Shown here in pieces: positions 2,687-60,494 of a DNA stretch of 64,000 nucleotides. The notes beneath the pieces were generated by a model, which saw only the letters and a list, made by a program, of their open reading frames with translations, did not search any database and was not told the origin of the DNA. Made by a program: the position numbers and the translations under genes. The first letter of the stretch is position 1; each line of letters begins with the position of its first letter. The stretch is from Sphingobacterium sp. ML3W (lineage in GTDB: Bacteria; Bacteroidota; Bacteroidia; Sphingobacteriales; Sphingobacteriaceae): contig NZ_CP107036.1 in the NCBI RefSeq assembly GCF_029542085.1, forward strand, positions 2,108,001-2,172,000. Reading direction: 5' to 3'.

Positions 2687-3523
2687 TCAGGAAATAATAC
2701 CTGCTTTTAACAGTTCAATTTCCATTTCTTTTTGTAGTTTTAGGGCCTCTTCACGTGCGCGTTCTGCAAAATCACGTCCTTTCGAAGCATATATAATTCC
2801 TCTTGTGCTATTGACCAAGAGTCCACAGTCTTTATTCATACCATATTTGCAAACATCTTCCAATGACCCCCCCTGTGCACCGACCCCCGGTACCAATAGG
2901 AAATGTTCTGGAGCATGCTCACGAATTTTAATAAAGCCTTCCCCTCTCGTTGCACCGACCACATACATTAAATTGTCGGTACTGCCCCAGGTATTTACTT
3001 TATCGATGACTTGTTCAAATAACTGAAGCCCTTCCTTGTTTTCAAAATTCTGAAAATCTAAACTTCCCTCATTAGAGGTCAAGGCTAATACAATAGCCCA
3101 TTTATCTTTGAACTCCAAAAAAGGTGTAACCGAATCTTTTCCCATGTAAGGAGCAATGGTTATGCTATCAAATCCTAAACCGGAGTTTGACTCATCAAAA
3201 AAAGCCATAGCATAACGACCTGAAGTATTTCCAATATCACCCCGTTTGGCATCAGCAATACTAAAACAATCTTTCGGTAATGCTGCCCAAGTTTTTTGAA
3301 GCGACTGCCACCCTTTTAATCCGTAACATTCATAAAAGGCAATATTGGGCTTATAAGCGACACATAAATCAGCTGTAGCATCAATAATAGCTTTATTGAA
3401 ACTATAGATCGGATCCTCATCATCCAAAAGGTGCTCAGGAATCTTAGTAAGGTCTGTGTCCAATCCGACACATAAAAACGAACGTTTCTCTTTAATTTGA
3501 TGGATAAGTTCTGCTCTGGTCAT
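2687..3523 (-). CDS. pyrF: Orotidine 5'-phosphate decarboxylase (long, type 2 form)
   Basis: Decarboxylates OMP to UMP in de novo pyrimidine synthesis. The 278-residue length and the start FLCVGLDTD match the longer bacterial subfamily. The catalytic Lys93 lies in [10 protein letters not shown] (residues 91-100). A phosphate-binding segment is visible as VPGVGAQGG, followed by [10 protein letters not shown]. It sits between the thioredoxin-like gene and guaA on the same strand, with spacing of about 20 and 42 bases, compatible with one transcript. Confidence 0.97.
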
Positions 3524-3542
3524 GCTAATGTATAGATCGTAA

Positions 3543-4136
3543 TTATTTATTGATTAAATCTTGAATAAAGGTTGCCACATCGGGTGTAGAGTAATCGGCC
3601 ATACCCTCATGCCGTGTCGCTAACTTGCCATCCTTGCCCAAAATCACGGTACTTGGAATAGACTCTGAAAGCCATTCTTTGGGAATATCGCTGTTTGGGT
3701 AACTAATCGGCAAGGTTAACTTCTCATTCTTGACAAAAGCAGCAGCCTTCTCTTTATCACCCTCTATCTCCACAATCAGAAATACAATATTCGGATTGTC
3801 CTTAAATTTATCGTAAAGCACATTAATAGAAGGCATCTCGGCTCGGCATGGCCCACACCAAGTCGCCCAAAAGTTGATAAAAACGACCTTACCCTTTAAG
3901 TCCGCTACTTGAATGGTTTCGCCCATCGGATTAACAAAAGAAACGGTGTTGCTGACAGGTTTCGCTACAGCATCAATTGGCTCGGCAACCTCTTTTGGTG
4001 CTTCCAATGTCGGTTTAAATAAACCGATTTTCATCAGCATCTGTTGAAAATAGCTCCTACTCGTCGGCCATATTAATAAACCAATAAGTAGTACAAATAC
4101 AACATTCCCGATTATCTTTTTTGTTTTTGGATTCAT
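3543..4136 (-). CDS. TlpA/ResA-like membrane-anchored thiol-disulfide oxidoreductase
   Basis: A 197-residue protein with one N-terminal membrane segment (about residues 9-24) followed by a linker and a thioredoxin fold. The redox motif WCGPC is at 93-97 in [16 protein letters not shown], and the cis-Pro region is [12 protein letters not shown]. By family this is an envelope reductant facing the periplasm (TlpA/ResA type), used in cytochrome c or disulfide maintenance. The substrate cannot be told from the neighbours, which are housekeeping genes. It lies 19 bases upstream of pyrF on the same strand. Confidence 0.88.
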
Positions 4137-50216: not shown

Positions 50217-51170
50217 TTAAATTTCGTTATCCGAACTTACCCGTGCCCTATAAAGCTCAATCTTTTGATAAATCTTGTTAAAAAACATTTTCTTATCCCG
50301 CGTGCCTGCTGTATTTAACAACCTGGAATTTTTAAGCTGATGCTGATAAAAGTTTGACGCATGCTGACAGCTATCTGTATCATTTGTAATAAAGTAGCCC
50401 AGCATCGTATGGGGCACAAATAACGCCTTTCTGTCCTTGTTCCCAACCAAAACATTATTGTTTAAGATCAATAGTTCATGATAATATAGTTGATACTGCT
50501 CATTATTCGGAACGCATTTTTTTTCCAGTGAAAACACCAGTTCCTTTATCTGGTCACAAAGGATCTTCCCATTGTCAGCTGTCAATAGACCCGCTTGGGA
50601 AAAATACATAATCTGCTGTAGCGTACTATTGATTGTCGTATCATTCCAGATCTCTTTTACCCTGATGGACGAATAATAATCATTCAGCTTTTGTCCCCGA
50701 TTATCCATCGGTGTTTTTAACAAAAACGACTCAAAAGATACCTCCAACTCATCCGGGCTCAATAAATTGAGCCAAACATAGCGTTTAAAACGAGATAATA
50801 ATCCTGTATTTATCGTATAGAAGATCGGTATATCCTTAGCCGAATAATACAGGAACGTCTCTAGGTTGGGTTTAAATTCTGTTAAAGACTTAAAGGAATT
50901 CTCAAGGTAATTTGACAGGTCATTGAATGACTGGATTTCCGTTGTCCTTTTCACTAAAACATGATCACTATGCTGAAACATCTTATCCAAAGAAAGTGAA
51001 AAGTGATTCGCGAGTTGTACCGTCTCCTCTATTGAAAATTTGCTCTTCATCGAAATCCGCCGATGCGCCGCATCATAGCTAATATCAAGAGCGCTTGCTA
51101 TAGCCTCAATGATAGACTTTGTTGCATCTATTTTTCGTTGTATTTCCTGGATCAGCTTTTCTTGATACAT
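50217..51170 (-). CDS. HTH-type regulator divergent from the HMG-CoA reductase operon
   Basis: A 317-residue protein. The N-terminal part (about residues 15-60) looks like a Cro/BetR-like HTH: IIEAIASALDISYDAAHRRISMK, then FSIEETVQLANHFSLSLDKMF. The long C-terminal part, rich in Tyr, Phe and Lys, matches no domain I know. I chose the ATG at 51170 (MYQEKLIQEIQ). The ATG at 51227 would add 19 unusual residues and put one of two identical repeats inside the coding region. It likely controls the divergent operon. Confidence 0.75.
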   Translation of the reverse strand: MYQEKLIQEIQRKIDATKSIIEAIASALDISYDAAHRRISMKSKFSIEETVQLANHFSLSLDKMFQHSDHVLVKRTTEIQSFNDLSNYLENSFKSLTEFKPNLETFLYYSAKDIPIFYTINTGLLSRFKRYVWLNLLSPDELEVSFESFLLKTPMDNRGQKLNDYYSSIRVKEIWNDTTINSTLQQIMYFSQAGLLTADNGKILCDQIKELVFSLEKKCVPNNEQYQLYYHELLILNNNVLVGNKDRKALFVPHTMLGYFITNDTDSCQHASNFYQHQLKNSRLLNTAGTRDKKMFFNKIYQKIELYRARVSSDNEI

Positions 51171-51185
51171 AGGCTTATTGGTTTT

Positions 51186-51250
51186 GCGATTATCACAAAA
51201 ATAAAAATATTTTTTATTGTTTACCACAATTTAGAATGCGATTATCACAA
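51186..51250. promoter_or_regulatory. Two identical 13-bp repeats in the regulator/HMG-CoA reductase divergent region
   Basis: GCGATTATCACAA occurs at 51186-51198 and again at 51238-51250, 52 bases (about five helical turns) apart, in the same orientation. The second copy directly abuts an exact TAACTTTG (-7 element, 51251-51258) for the rightward operon. Candidate operators of the adjacent regulator. Confidence 0.6.
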
Positions 51251-51296
51251 TAACTTTGTTAAACAAAACAAATAGTCATTTTATTAAAAGCTGAAT

Positions 51297-52514
51297 ATGA
51301 AAACATTATTAAAAATACCTGCGCGAGCAGTTGATCAAACGGAAAACTTATGCGCTTTACCCCTTTCGTCGGAAATTAGCACCGAAGGAACGAAAACACT
51401 ACGAAGCTATCTAAGCGAAGAAACGAACAAGCAATTTCCTACATTGACCTATACCAACATCGACCTATCGCTATTAAATGGAAATATTGAGAACTTCATT
51501 GGTATGAGTCAAGTTCCGACAGGGATTATTGGTCCATTAAAAGTCCACGGAACCGCAGCCAACGGTGCATACTATGTGCCATTGGCCACCAGTGAGGGGG
51601 CATTGGTCGCATCTTATCATCGTGGAGCGAGGGCATGCTTGCTAGCAGGGGGAGTTACTTCGATCTGCCTAAAAGAAGGTGTCCAACGAAGTCCGGTATT
51701 CAAATTTGAAAACTTAAATGATTTAAGCCTTTTTGTGTCGTGGTTCCTTGCTGAGAAAGACATTCTTCAGGATATCGTTAAGAAAACAAGTCGCTTTGCA
51801 AAATTAACGGACACAAGAATCCAAATCGAAGGCAATCATCTGACCATATCATTTGAATACTTCACCGCAGATGCGGCGGGACAAAATATGGTCACCATCT
51901 GTACAGATGCCATCTGTCGGTTTATGGTCGACCTATGTCCGGTCAAGCCTACACACTGGTTTATTGAAGGGAACAGTTCCGGCGACAAAAAGGCAACAGC
52001 ATATTCCTTCAACAACGTTAGAGGTAAGAAAGTAACGGCAGAAATAGAACTATCAGCCAGCATTGTATCGGAAGTACTCAAAACATCATCCGAACTGATG
52101 GATAGATACTGGCGCAGCTCCACCATGGGGATCATCCAAAGCGCTGCCATAGGTGCACATGGTCATTATGCCAATGGGCTGGCCGCACTATTTTTAGCTA
52201 CTGGCCAGGATGTTGCCTGTGTAGCCGAAGCTGCAACAGGTATCACAAGAATGGAATTAAATAAAGATGGTTCACTATACGCCAGCGTCACCTTGCCAAA
52301 CCTGATCATAGGGACTGTCGGTGGTGGCACAAACCTCCCTACCCAAAAGGAATGTTTGGAGATCATGGACTGTTACGGAGAAGGAAATTCAATAAAATAT
52401 GCAGAGATAGCCGCAGCTCTTGTACTTGCTGGGGAATTATCTATTGCTGCTGCCCTGTCAGCAGGCCAGTTTACGCAGGCACATCAAAAATTCGGCAGAA
52501 AAAAATCGGTATAA
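51297..52514 (+). CDS. Hydroxymethylglutaryl-CoA reductase (class I-like)
   Basis: Reduces HMG-CoA to mevalonate, the key step of the mevalonate route to isoprenoids. 405 residues, no membrane anchor. Catalytic residues can be matched: Glu100 (ATSEGALVAS), Lys232 (SGDKKATAY), Asp305 (ATGQDVAC) and His396 (QAHQKFGR). ENFIGMSQVPTGIIGPL and GTVGGGTNLPTQ are class I-type blocks; DAAGQNM replaces the common DAMGMNM. It leads a four-gene operon with lipid-headgroup-type enzymes; no other mevalonate genes are in the window. Confidence 0.92.
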   Translation: MKTLLKIPARAVDQTENLCALPLSSEISTEGTKTLRSYLSEETNKQFPTLTYTNIDLSLLNGNIENFIGMSQVPTGIIGPLKVHGTAANGAYYVPLATSEGALVASYHRGARACLLAGGVTSICLKEGVQRSPVFKFENLNDLSLFVSWFLAEKDILQDIVKKTSRFAKLTDTRIQIEGNHLTISFEYFTADAAGQNMVTICTDAICRFMVDLCPVKPTHWFIEGNSSGDKKATAYSFNNVRGKKVTAEIELSASIVSEVLKTSSELMDRYWRSSTMGIIQSAAIGAHGHYANGLAALFLATGQDVACVAEAATGITRMELNKDGSLYASVTLPNLIIGTVGGGTNLPTQKECLEIMDCYGEGNSIKYAEIAAALVLAGELSIAAALSAGQFTQAHQKFGRKKSV

Positions 52515-52515
52515 A

Positions 52516-53097
52516 ATGGAAACGAAAAAAGAAAATAGATGGAATGTGCCAAATGCACTTTCTATCTACCGTATACTTGCAATACCTTTTATTAGCTATG
52601 CCATATTAACTGAAAACAGGAATCTCTTTATAGTATTATTGTCTGTAAACCTTATAACGGATATCCTCGACGGATTAATCGCTAGACTATTTAAACTTCA
52701 AACAGAATTTGGCGCTAAACTGGATTCGGTCGCGGACATAGGGACATACCTGATGGCCTTTATGGGAATGATAACACTGGAAAAAGCTTTCGTAGCAGCA
52801 TATAAAATCGAATTTATCCTCCTTATTGTCTTATGGATTGCTCCCCAAGTATATGCCCTTATCCGATTTCAACGGTTCCCCAGCTTTCATTTATGGTCTT
52901 ATAAGATAACTGGTTACTTACAGGGCATATTTATCTTTAGCTACTTCGTATTCGGATTTCATACAATCTACTTTCACTTGATGTTAATCGTGAGTTGCCT
53001 GGCTTATCTGGAAGAATTATTTCTAGTGATTACCTTACCAAAGCTGCAATCCAATTTGAAGAGCATATTCCTTATCCAACAACAAAAAGGAGGTTGA
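52516..53097 (+). CDS. CDP-alcohol phosphatidyltransferase family protein
   Basis: A 193-residue membrane enzyme with about six hydrophobic segments. It carries the full family signature D-x2-DG-x2-AR-x8-G-x3-D-x3-D at Asp49, Asp52, Gly53, Ala56, Arg57, Gly66, Asp70 and Asp74. Such enzymes exchange CMP of a CDP-linked lipid for an alcohol such as glycerol phosphate, inositol phosphate or serine. It starts one base after the HMG-CoA reductase stop codon. The acceptor alcohol is unknown. Confidence 0.92.
   Translation: METKKENRWNVPNALSIYRILAIPFISYAILTENRNLFIVLLSVNLITDILDGLIARLFKLQTEFGAKLDSVADIGTYLMAFMGMITLEKAFVAAYKIEFILLIVLWIAPQVYALIRFQRFPSFHLWSYKITGYLQGIFIFSYFVFGFHTIYFHLMLIVSCLAYLEELFLVITLPKLQSNLKSIFLIQQQKGG
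53087..53094 (+). promoter_or_regulatory. Strong Shine-Dalgarno sequence
   Basis: AAGGAGGT, 5 bases before the ATG at 53100. A full anti-SD match is unusual here, where most starts have none. It also encodes the Lys-Gly-Gly end of the preceding protein, so chance is possible. Confidence 0.55.
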
Positions 53098-53099
53098 TC

Positions 53100-53810
53100 A
53101 TGTATTTGTTTATTGCGAACATATTGCTATTATTTTTTGGAATAGGTGCTTTAGTGACACTGTATCTCAATAAGGACAGTCAAGCTGATCGAGCCAAAGA
53201 GCGTTGGCTAAAACTGGGAGTGTATTTTCTGGTGCTGGTCCTGGTATTTTCGTCCATTTATTTTGAACAAATAAAACTCCTGGCTATTTGCATAGGAATC
53301 GTCGGCCTTTATGAAATTTTTAAAGCCCAATCATTTTCCAGACAAACAGTTCCTTTCTGCTATTTTGTGTTATTCATTTACCTCAGTATCCTATTTGCAT
53401 TCGTTAAGTTCAGCAATCAGATACCAACAGAGCATATATGTTTTGTCTACTTTATAGTTGTCACCTTTGATGGGTTTAGCCAACTTAGTGGTCAATTATT
53501 GGGAAAACGAAAACTGATCCCCAAGATTAGTCCCAATAAAACTTTTGAGGGTTTGATTGGTGGTATGATATTGACACTATCGACCAGTCTTTTCCTTTTT
53601 CATTATATCCATCCTTCAATCGGATCAACAGTAGGGACAGCAGTATTCATCTGTATTTCCGCACTTGTTGGAGATCTCTTGGCTTCCTGGTACAAGCGCA
53701 GATGTCAAATTAAGGACTACAGCCGATTAATCCCGGGACATGGTGGAATATTGGATCGCTTCGACAGCTTTATGTTCTCCGGAGCAATGTATTGGTTAGT
53801 TTATTTATAG
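53100..53810 (+). CDS. Phosphatidate cytidylyltransferase (CdsA-like)
   Basis: A 236-residue membrane protein with about seven helices. It has the family segments PKISPNKTFEGLIGG (residues 141-155) and the C-terminal CDS signature SWYKRRCQIKDY...PGHGGILDRFDS at 196-223. It activates a phospholipid or lipid phosphate with CTP to form a CDP-lipid. The start ATG at 53100 follows a strong Shine-Dalgarno site and lies 2 bases after the previous stop. It is shorter than typical housekeeping CdsA and is probably a second, specialised copy. Confidence 0.9.
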   Translation: MYLFIANILLLFFGIGALVTLYLNKDSQADRAKERWLKLGVYFLVLVLVFSSIYFEQIKLLAICIGIVGLYEIFKAQSFSRQTVPFCYFVLFIYLSILFAFVKFSNQIPTEHICFVYFIVVTFDGFSQLSGQLLGKRKLIPKISPNKTFEGLIGGMILTLSTSLFLFHYIHPSIGSTVGTAVFICISALVGDLLASWYKRRCQIKDYSRLIPGHGGILDRFDSFMFSGAMYWLVYL

Positions 53811-53862
53811 CAACGTAAATACCCTAATCTTAAAATAATTGATAAACAAATAATTTATACAG

Positions 53863-54534
53863 ATGAAAAGCGAATTATCAAATATGCTCCTATTGGCAAT
53901 GATCTTTTTGCTGCTATTTGCCCTTTCTGAAATATTATACCATTGCTTTAAGATTAGAGTTGAATTCACGAGAAAACTCGTGCATATGGGCACGGGCATT
54001 ATTTCACTGTTATTCCCTATTTTACTTATAAGTCATTGGTCCGTATTGTTGCTTTGTGGATTATTTACCGTGATTTTGGTCTTATCCCTAAAATTTAATT
54101 TATTGCGATCTATACATGCGATTGACCGGAAATCCGCAGGTAGCCTTGCCTATCCTGCCGCAGTGTATCTTTGCTTTCTGACTCAGGCCTATCTGGATGA
54201 TCGATATATTTTCTATTATCTACCTTTAGCTACCTTAGCTATCTGCGATCCCATGGCCGCATTATCTGGCAAAAAATGGCCATTGGGTTCCTATATGATC
54301 CTTGGCGCAAAAAAGACTATGTTAGGATCTATTGTTTTCTTTATCAGTGCAGTTATTGTGGCTTTTTTGATCTGGAAATACACGCATGATTCGAATCTCG
54401 GCTTTCAGGAACTTACCATCATAGCTGCGATTGCACTCATGGCTACACTCGCTGAAGCAATGAGCAAAGATGGCTATGATAATCTAACCATCCCCATAAG
54501 TACAATCGTAAGCTTGTATATTCTTCTTCCTTAA
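53863..54534 (+). CDS. Dolichol/phytol kinase-like membrane protein
   Basis: A 223-residue protein with about seven membrane helices. Family features of the CTP-dependent lipid kinases (SEC59/DGK1/VTE5 group) are visible: RVEFTRKLVHMGTG (residues 32-45), CDPMAALSGKKWP (128-140), KKTMLGS (150-156) and TLAEAMSKDGYDNLTIP (195-211). It would phosphorylate an isoprenoid alcohol or diacylglycerol. It is the last gene of the operon, 52 bases after the cytidylyltransferase gene. Confidence 0.85.
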   Translation: MKSELSNMLLLAMIFLLLFALSEILYHCFKIRVEFTRKLVHMGTGIISLLFPILLISHWSVLLLCGLFTVILVLSLKFNLLRSIHAIDRKSAGSLAYPAAVYLCFLTQAYLDDRYIFYYLPLATLAICDPMAALSGKKWPLGSYMILGAKKTMLGSIVFFISAVIVAFLIWKYTHDSNLGFQELTIIAAIALMATLAEAMSKDGYDNLTIPISTIVSLYILLP

Positions 54535-57658: not shown

Positions 57659-57663
57659 TCTCG

Positions 57664-57742
57664 ACTTTAGGGGTGTCTGCATATGCGGGCTGAGATTTTA
57701 CCCTTATAACCTGATCCAGATCATACTGGCGTAGGGAAAAGT
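57664..57742 (+). ncRNA. TPP riboswitch (THI element)
   Basis: All conserved blocks of the thiamine pyrophosphate riboswitch are visible: P1 ACTTT / AAAGT closing the element, GGGGTG, the invariant GCTGAGA, ACCC, ACCTGATCCAGATC-like pyrophosphate/pyrimidine sensor segment, and TACTGGCGTAGGGAA. It senses TPP and lies in the leader of thiS and the following thiamine genes. Confidence 0.95.
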
Positions 57743-57754
57743 AAGTTATCTTCC

Positions 57755-58056: not shown

Positions 58057-60494
<2,438 letters not shown>

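Follow-up and report, generated by a model that had tools for sequence, protein, structure and literature searches.

Many bacterial genomes that lack a mevalonate pathway encode 'HMG-CoA reductases', which has been a puzzle. FcrA, a relative of 3-hydroxy-3-methylglutaryl-CoA (HMG-CoA) reductase (HMGR), was assayed and converts acyl-CoA of C14 and longer into fatty alcohols, and HMG-CoA is not reduced (Grossi et al. 2025, PMC11948995). Its diagnostic changes are Ser684 to an acidic residue, replacement of the pocket lysine with loss of its salt bridge, and Leu862 to a bulky residue (PMC11948995). In human HMGR, Lys735 forms a salt bridge with the HMG carboxylate (PMC9500038); PMC11948995 numbers the pocket lysine Lys795, taken here as Lys735. 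The fcrA neighbours given in the main text of that paper are wax ester synthase/diacylglycerol acyltransferase (WS/DGAT), PlsC-like and AGPS genes, with no kinase, CDP or UbiA genes (PMC11948995). Here, a 64 kb stretch (the window) of the Sphingobacterium sp. ML3W genome (G000; 6.55 Mb, single contig) was analysed. It carries four open reading frames (ORFs) on the + strand, separated by 1, 2 and 52 bases, the first of which very probably encodes an FcrA-type enzyme. They form a conserved, probably regulated operon, which with a probability of roughly one half makes a fatty-alcohol-based phospholipid via phosphorylation and CDP activation.

51297..52514, + strand: likely FcrA-type fatty acyl-CoA reductase with a class I HMGR fold, 405 aa (PF00368 HMG-CoA_red, 371 bits; pocket residues)
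52516..53097, + strand: CDP-alcohol phosphotransferase (CDPAP), 193 aa, ATG start (PF01066 CDP-OH_P_transf, 75 bits; full signature)
53100..53810, + strand: CdsA-type CTP:phosphate cytidylyltransferase, 236 aa (PF01148 CTP_transf_1, 147 bits; full signature)
53863..54534, + strand: DK, membrane protein of the CdsA / dolichol-phytol-kinase superfamily and probable CTP-dependent lipid-alcohol kinase, 223 aa (model, fold, fusion, co-occurrence)

The CDPAP signature DILDGLIARLFKLQTEFGAKLDSVAD (Dx2DGx2ARx8Gx3Dx3D pattern) and the CdsA signature SWYKRRCQIKDYSRLIPGHGGILDRFD (SxxKRx4KD...HGGxxDRxD pattern) are both complete. Matches of CDPAP to PgsA, PssA and phosphatidylinositol synthase structures were weak and did not discriminate its subtype. 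In each of the four genes, most codon differences from two close relatives are synonymous, so all four evolve as coding sequences. The genes, their positions and gaps and the two full signatures were given correctly in the initial annotation of this DNA. Of the catalytic residues that it listed for the reductase, Glu100, Asp305 and His396 hold, while its Lys232 corresponds to human Lys692 and the true catalytic lysine is Lys231.

The window reductase and 86 relatives (87 family members) were aligned with the human, Arabidopsis and Methanothermococcus HMGRs. The catalytic set of the window protein is Glu100, Lys231, Asp305 and His396 (human Glu559, Lys691, Asp767 and His866). In human numbering, Glu559, Arg590, Asn686, Asp690, Lys691, Lys692, Asn755 and Asp767 are invariant across the family, and only two truncated rows lack His866. 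Three other positions are replaced, and their codons are as follows.

51966..51968, + strand: Glu224, replacing human HMGR Ser684 (Glu in 77 and Asp in 10 of 87)
52116..52118, + strand: Ser274, aligned with human HMGR Lys735, the HMG carboxylate ligand (Lys in 0 of 87 rows)
52470..52472, + strand: Phe392, replacing human HMGR Leu862 (of 87, Phe in 84, Trp in 1, two rows truncated)

The Ser684 and Lys735 replacements were noticed in the alignment before they were matched with the published FcrA changes. All three diagnostic substitutions occur in the window reductase, with the catalytic residues kept, and likewise throughout the 87 members. Structure matches returned the 6hr8 fold, the best PDB matches having 32-40% identity. 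The window protein therefore resembles FcrA (PMC11948995) in its HMGR fold, catalytic tetrad, Ser684 to Glu change, lost pocket lysine and bulky aromatic residue at Leu862, as well as in its occurrence in bacterial hosts without the mevalonate pathway. It differs in lacking the N-terminal long-chain carrier domain, in having a host without WS/DGAT, and in lying in a CTP-dependent lipid operon, a setting absent from the main text of that paper. With class I HMGRs (human, Methanothermococcus) it shares the fold and catalytic residues, whereas the HMG-carboxylate pocket is not kept and the pathway partners are missing. Because of these two differences normal HMGR function was rejected. The residues point to an FcrA-type fatty acyl-CoA reductase with high likelihood, and the protein almost certainly does not work as an HMG-CoA reductase.

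The reductase was found in 11 of 37 Sphingobacterium genomes. A close CDPAP orthologue and an intact DK orthologue are each present in exactly these 11; since the species are related to each other, these are not 11 independent events. The other congeners have none of FcrA, CDPAP and DK, save for a remnant in G023, a close relative. There, DK residues 169-223 are joined directly to residues 82-336 of a regulator that is encoded divergently upstream of the operon in ML3W. The sequence of this one short contig reads as a single deletion that removed the regulator start, FcrA, CDPAP, CdsA and most of DK. The scar, where the truncated regulator meets the DK end, lies around 3196-4126 of locus L155 (G023 contig 116). 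In the Flavobacteriaceae locus L065, CdsA and DK are fused in frame into one 451 aa protein beside FcrA and CDPAP. Gene order is conserved in relatives. Because of this conserved order, the shared presence in congeners, the joint loss and the CdsA-DK fusion, the four genes are regarded as a conserved functional unit. The initial annotation had linked them from spacing, had proposed co-occurrence of the families as a check, and would have dropped the link for genes scattered in relatives or a complete mevalonate operon elsewhere; the unit stands on all these counts.

Upstream of the operon, a divergent regulator gene and operator-like sites between the two, all overlooked by the initial annotation, were identified.

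50217..51170, - strand: divergent regulator reg336, start re-assigned to MYQE, with a weak BetR/HTH-like N-terminus (BetR E 0.003, below cut-off)
51186..51198, + strand: operator-like site 1, GCGATTATCACAA, an exact 13-mer with only two copies in the window
51238..51250, + strand: operator-like site 2, GCGATTATCACAA, where the relatives compared have a related sequence
51251..51258, + strand: promoter-like element TAACTTTG, directly downstream of operator-like site 2

The consensus of the Bacteroidota -7 promoter element is TAnnTTTG, and the promoter-like element fits it. Most Sphingobacterium operons, and L065 too, have a reg336 homologue next to FcrA. Site 1 is the same or near-identical in relatives, L065 among them, and the other loci with the regulator that were compared, again including L065, have related sites at matching positions. 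These features suggest that the divergent regulator probably controls the operon via the two operator-like sites.

The predicted structure of DK has a pLDDT of 93.9. Its best solved neighbour is the CDP-diacylglycerol synthetase TmCdsA (4q2e) with a Z of 9.3, modest for a helical protein, and CarS gave a Z of 6.5. A PDB profile search with DK returned nothing. CTP use is proposed because TmCdsA and CarS are the nearest folds, and the model suggests that DK is probably a CTP-using membrane enzyme. DK resembles the dolichol/phytol kinases SEC59 and VTE5, which share its size, membrane topology and CdsA-like fold, and from which it would differ in taking a fatty alcohol as substrate. From this resemblance, which gives DK its kinase label, and from the gene context, DK is a probable kinase.

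Kinases of three unrelated families adjoin FcrA, namely DK, a YegS/DagK-like kinase and an APH-type kinase. Locus L075, which has no DK, carries the YegS/DagK-like kinase together with a phosphatidylserine-decarboxylase-like gene near FcrA (both read from sequence), and in L031 the APH-type domain is fused to an FcrA-like reductase. Thus, an unrelated kinase can apparently stand in where DK is missing. A CarS-like protein likewise takes the place of CdsA in L031, L048 and L109. The reductase-APH fusion (L031:3188-5503) lies beside CarS-like, PEP-synthase-like, methyltransferase, acyltransferase and desaturase genes. In L062, L073, L053, L071, L080, L094 and L099, DK is longer (about 440-470 aa) and has an additional membrane half at its C-terminus; a DUF92/phytyl-phosphate-kinase identity for this half was rejected, as only one protein gave a match, and a weak one (E 0.04).

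In the proposed pathway, the FcrA-type reductase would, by homology and its pocket residues, convert long-chain acyl-CoA with NADPH into a primary fatty alcohol, which DK would phosphorylate, probably with CTP. The CdsA-like enzyme would then form a CDP-alkyl intermediate, and CDPAP would replace its CMP by a head-group alcohol to yield an alkyl phosphodiester lipid. Direct support, by homology, concerns the first step; the order and substrates of the later ones we infer. The initial annotation had the last three genes phosphorylating a lipid alcohol, activating it with CTP and attaching a head group, and this is still their best reading. The natural CdsA-DK fusion, the three unrelated kinases beside FcrA and the conserved two-site operator with its divergent regulator favour such chemistry. 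Several observations weigh against the proposal. DK falls below every curated cut-off, including that of PF01148, and its CdsA-like fold would fit a kinase and a cytidylyltransferase alike. DK homologues of about 500 aa are widespread among Bacteroidota that lack FcrA, so the DK family is not specific to fatty alcohols. Finally, in a family tree without characterised FcrA sequences, the three HMGR controls cluster (SH-aLRT 99) and the placement of L030 and L031 is unsettled.

The main rival is that the FcrA alcohol ends up in an ether glycerolipid, DK phosphorylating an alkyl (or alkyl-acyl) glycerol from which CdsA and CDPAP build an ether phospholipid. Grossi et al. suggest that FcrA may supply ether lipids and point to some genomes in which PlsC-like or AGPS genes are its neighbours (PMC11948995); the YegS/DagK-like kinase and phosphatidylserine-decarboxylase-like gene of L075 would also fit glycerolipids. 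However, the short operon, to which the search for AGPS was confined, holds neither an AGPS-like gene nor any other recognised as ether-forming, and UbiA and the PEP-synthase-like gene of the long cluster described below are absent from the whole of G000. An ether lipid is considered less likely than the proposed product, with a modest probability.

Less probable still is that CDPAP uses the fatty alcohol as acceptor, so that CDP-diacylglycerol and fatty alcohol give a phosphatidyl-alkanol, with DK and CdsA supplying extra CDP-diacylglycerol. A family-typical CDPAP could take an unusual alcohol, and CdsA and DK could raise the CDP-diacylglycerol supply, but the CdsA-DK fusion of L065, standing beside FcrA and CDPAP, is more simply read as two successive reactions of a single lipid alcohol, and the phosphatidyl-alkanol reaction has no known precedent that could be cited. 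The operon shares with the CDP-diacylglycerol phospholipid pathway both families (CdsA and CDP-alcohol phosphotransferases), with intact signatures and in consecutive genes. It differs in that these are accessory copies tied to a fatty-alcohol-forming reductase and DK, the CDPAP orthologue being confined to FcrA-bearing congeners.

The initial annotation favoured a true HMG-CoA reductase making mevalonate for a special isoprenoid lipid, which would then be phosphorylated. The family-level likeness to class I HMGR (371 bits; fold 6hr8) and the intact catalytic residues agree with it, but both the window protein and the family at large have other residues in place of Ser684, Lys735 and Leu862, and assayed FcrA does not reduce HMG-CoA (PMC11948995). 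The full mevalonate pathway that the annotation suggested looking for elsewhere is not there either: the ML3W genome encodes DXR of the methylerythritol phosphate pathway (494 bits), no match to HMG-CoA synthase (PF08540) was found in it, and mevalonate diphosphate decarboxylase (TIGR01240) reached only 24 bits against a cut-off of 171. Mevalonate supply by the operon was rejected on account of the pocket residues and these two missing enzymes, and the isoprenoid reading is now very improbable. Wax esters, which FcrA of the same enzyme family serves in Halobacteriales (PMC11948995), are the least credible product and that route was rejected, since WS/DGAT was found neither in the ML3W genome nor in any searched Sphingobacterium congener, the sole relative that has it (G037) bears an extra N-terminal domain (PF25653) on its reductase, and the window protein lacks the N-terminal domain of wax-ester FcrAs.

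A search with the window reductase brought together 80 loci from many phyla, 58 of them with at least 7.5 kb downstream. At least four of six partners, i.e. UbiA, a phosphoenolpyruvate (PEP)-synthase/PigC-like protein, a BtaA-like DUF3419 protein, DK, GNAT and an OleC/FadD-like AMP-ligase, are present in 38 of the 58. These long-cluster partners keep their catalytic residues; in the UbiA group the first Asp motif is kept and the second is unusual. A syntenic seven-gene cluster (FcrA, UbiA, PEP-synthase-like, BtaA-like, DK, GNAT, AMP-ligase) was seen in L035, L036, L037, L046, L071, L076, L077, L099, L102 and others, with hosts in Bacteroidota, Verrucomicrobia, Planctomycetes, Gemmatimonadetes, Proteobacteria and other groups. 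Some long clusters (L035_10, L040_14, L048_16, L049_7, L079_12) also encode, between GNAT and the AMP-ligase, a family of proteins of about 194 aa with an N-terminal membrane segment. The short form (FcrA-CDPAP-CdsA-DK) occurs in loci of Sphingobacterium, Flavobacteriaceae (L065) and Saprospiraceae (L059), and on the tree it requires three changes or more. Long-cluster members hidden elsewhere in the ML3W genome were considered and rejected: UbiA, BtaA and the cluster-type PEP-synthase-like protein are absent genome-wide, leaving only a diverged relative of the PEP-synthase family (814 aa, 34%). Among 296 sampled Bacteroidota genomes, eight of the nine with a closely related reductase (at least 54%) have DK no more than about 6 kb away on the same contig, and the ninth has no DK; in genomes whose reductases are more distant and longer, DK homologues lie elsewhere or are missing.

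Archaeal ether phospholipid synthesis (UbiA-type digeranylgeranylglyceryl phosphate synthase, CarS, CDP-alcohol phosphotransferase) runs in an analogous order from a lipid alcohol through CTP activation by CarS/CdsA to head-group transfer. The long-type clusters differ in using a fatty-alcohol reductase and an unusual UbiA; a geranylgeranylglyceryl-phosphate-synthase-like gene was not noticed in them, no search having been aimed at one.

Twelve loci have none of the six partners, and these belong to Vibrio, Photobacterium, Flavobacterium and one planctomycete. 'HMG-CoA reductases' of Vibrio and Photobacterium with the FcrA residues lie outside the cluster in L082, L083, L084, L088, L098, L100, L106 and L108, and they are probably fatty acyl-CoA reductases too. 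The FcrA-like reductases of Flavobacterium (L050, L054, L057, L063, L070) form their own branch and have no lipid-cluster neighbours. ORFs of 94 aa and 93 aa near the Vibrio and Flavobacterium reductases were considered as acyl carrier proteins and rejected, as their sequences do not fit.

FcrA itself is already published. In the open-access literature, where absence is no proof, neither the operon nor the long cluster with DUF3419, UbiA and the reductase was found described. The gene context adds evidence that a large group of bacterial 'HMG-CoA reductases' in hosts without a mevalonate pathway form fatty alcohols for dedicated lipid pathways that do not lead to wax esters. If the proposed chain of steps is true, a fatty-alcohol-based membrane lipid is predicted in Sphingobacterium. 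More tentatively, and with somewhat less than even confidence, FcrA-type reductases might anchor undescribed bacterial membrane-lipid pathways, the short form leading to an alkyl phosphodiester lipid, maybe without glycerol, and the long form, spread over many phyla, to a second new lipid class.

Elsewhere in the window, a thiamine pyrophosphate riboswitch was noted at 57659-57754, upstream of thiC (58069-59883).

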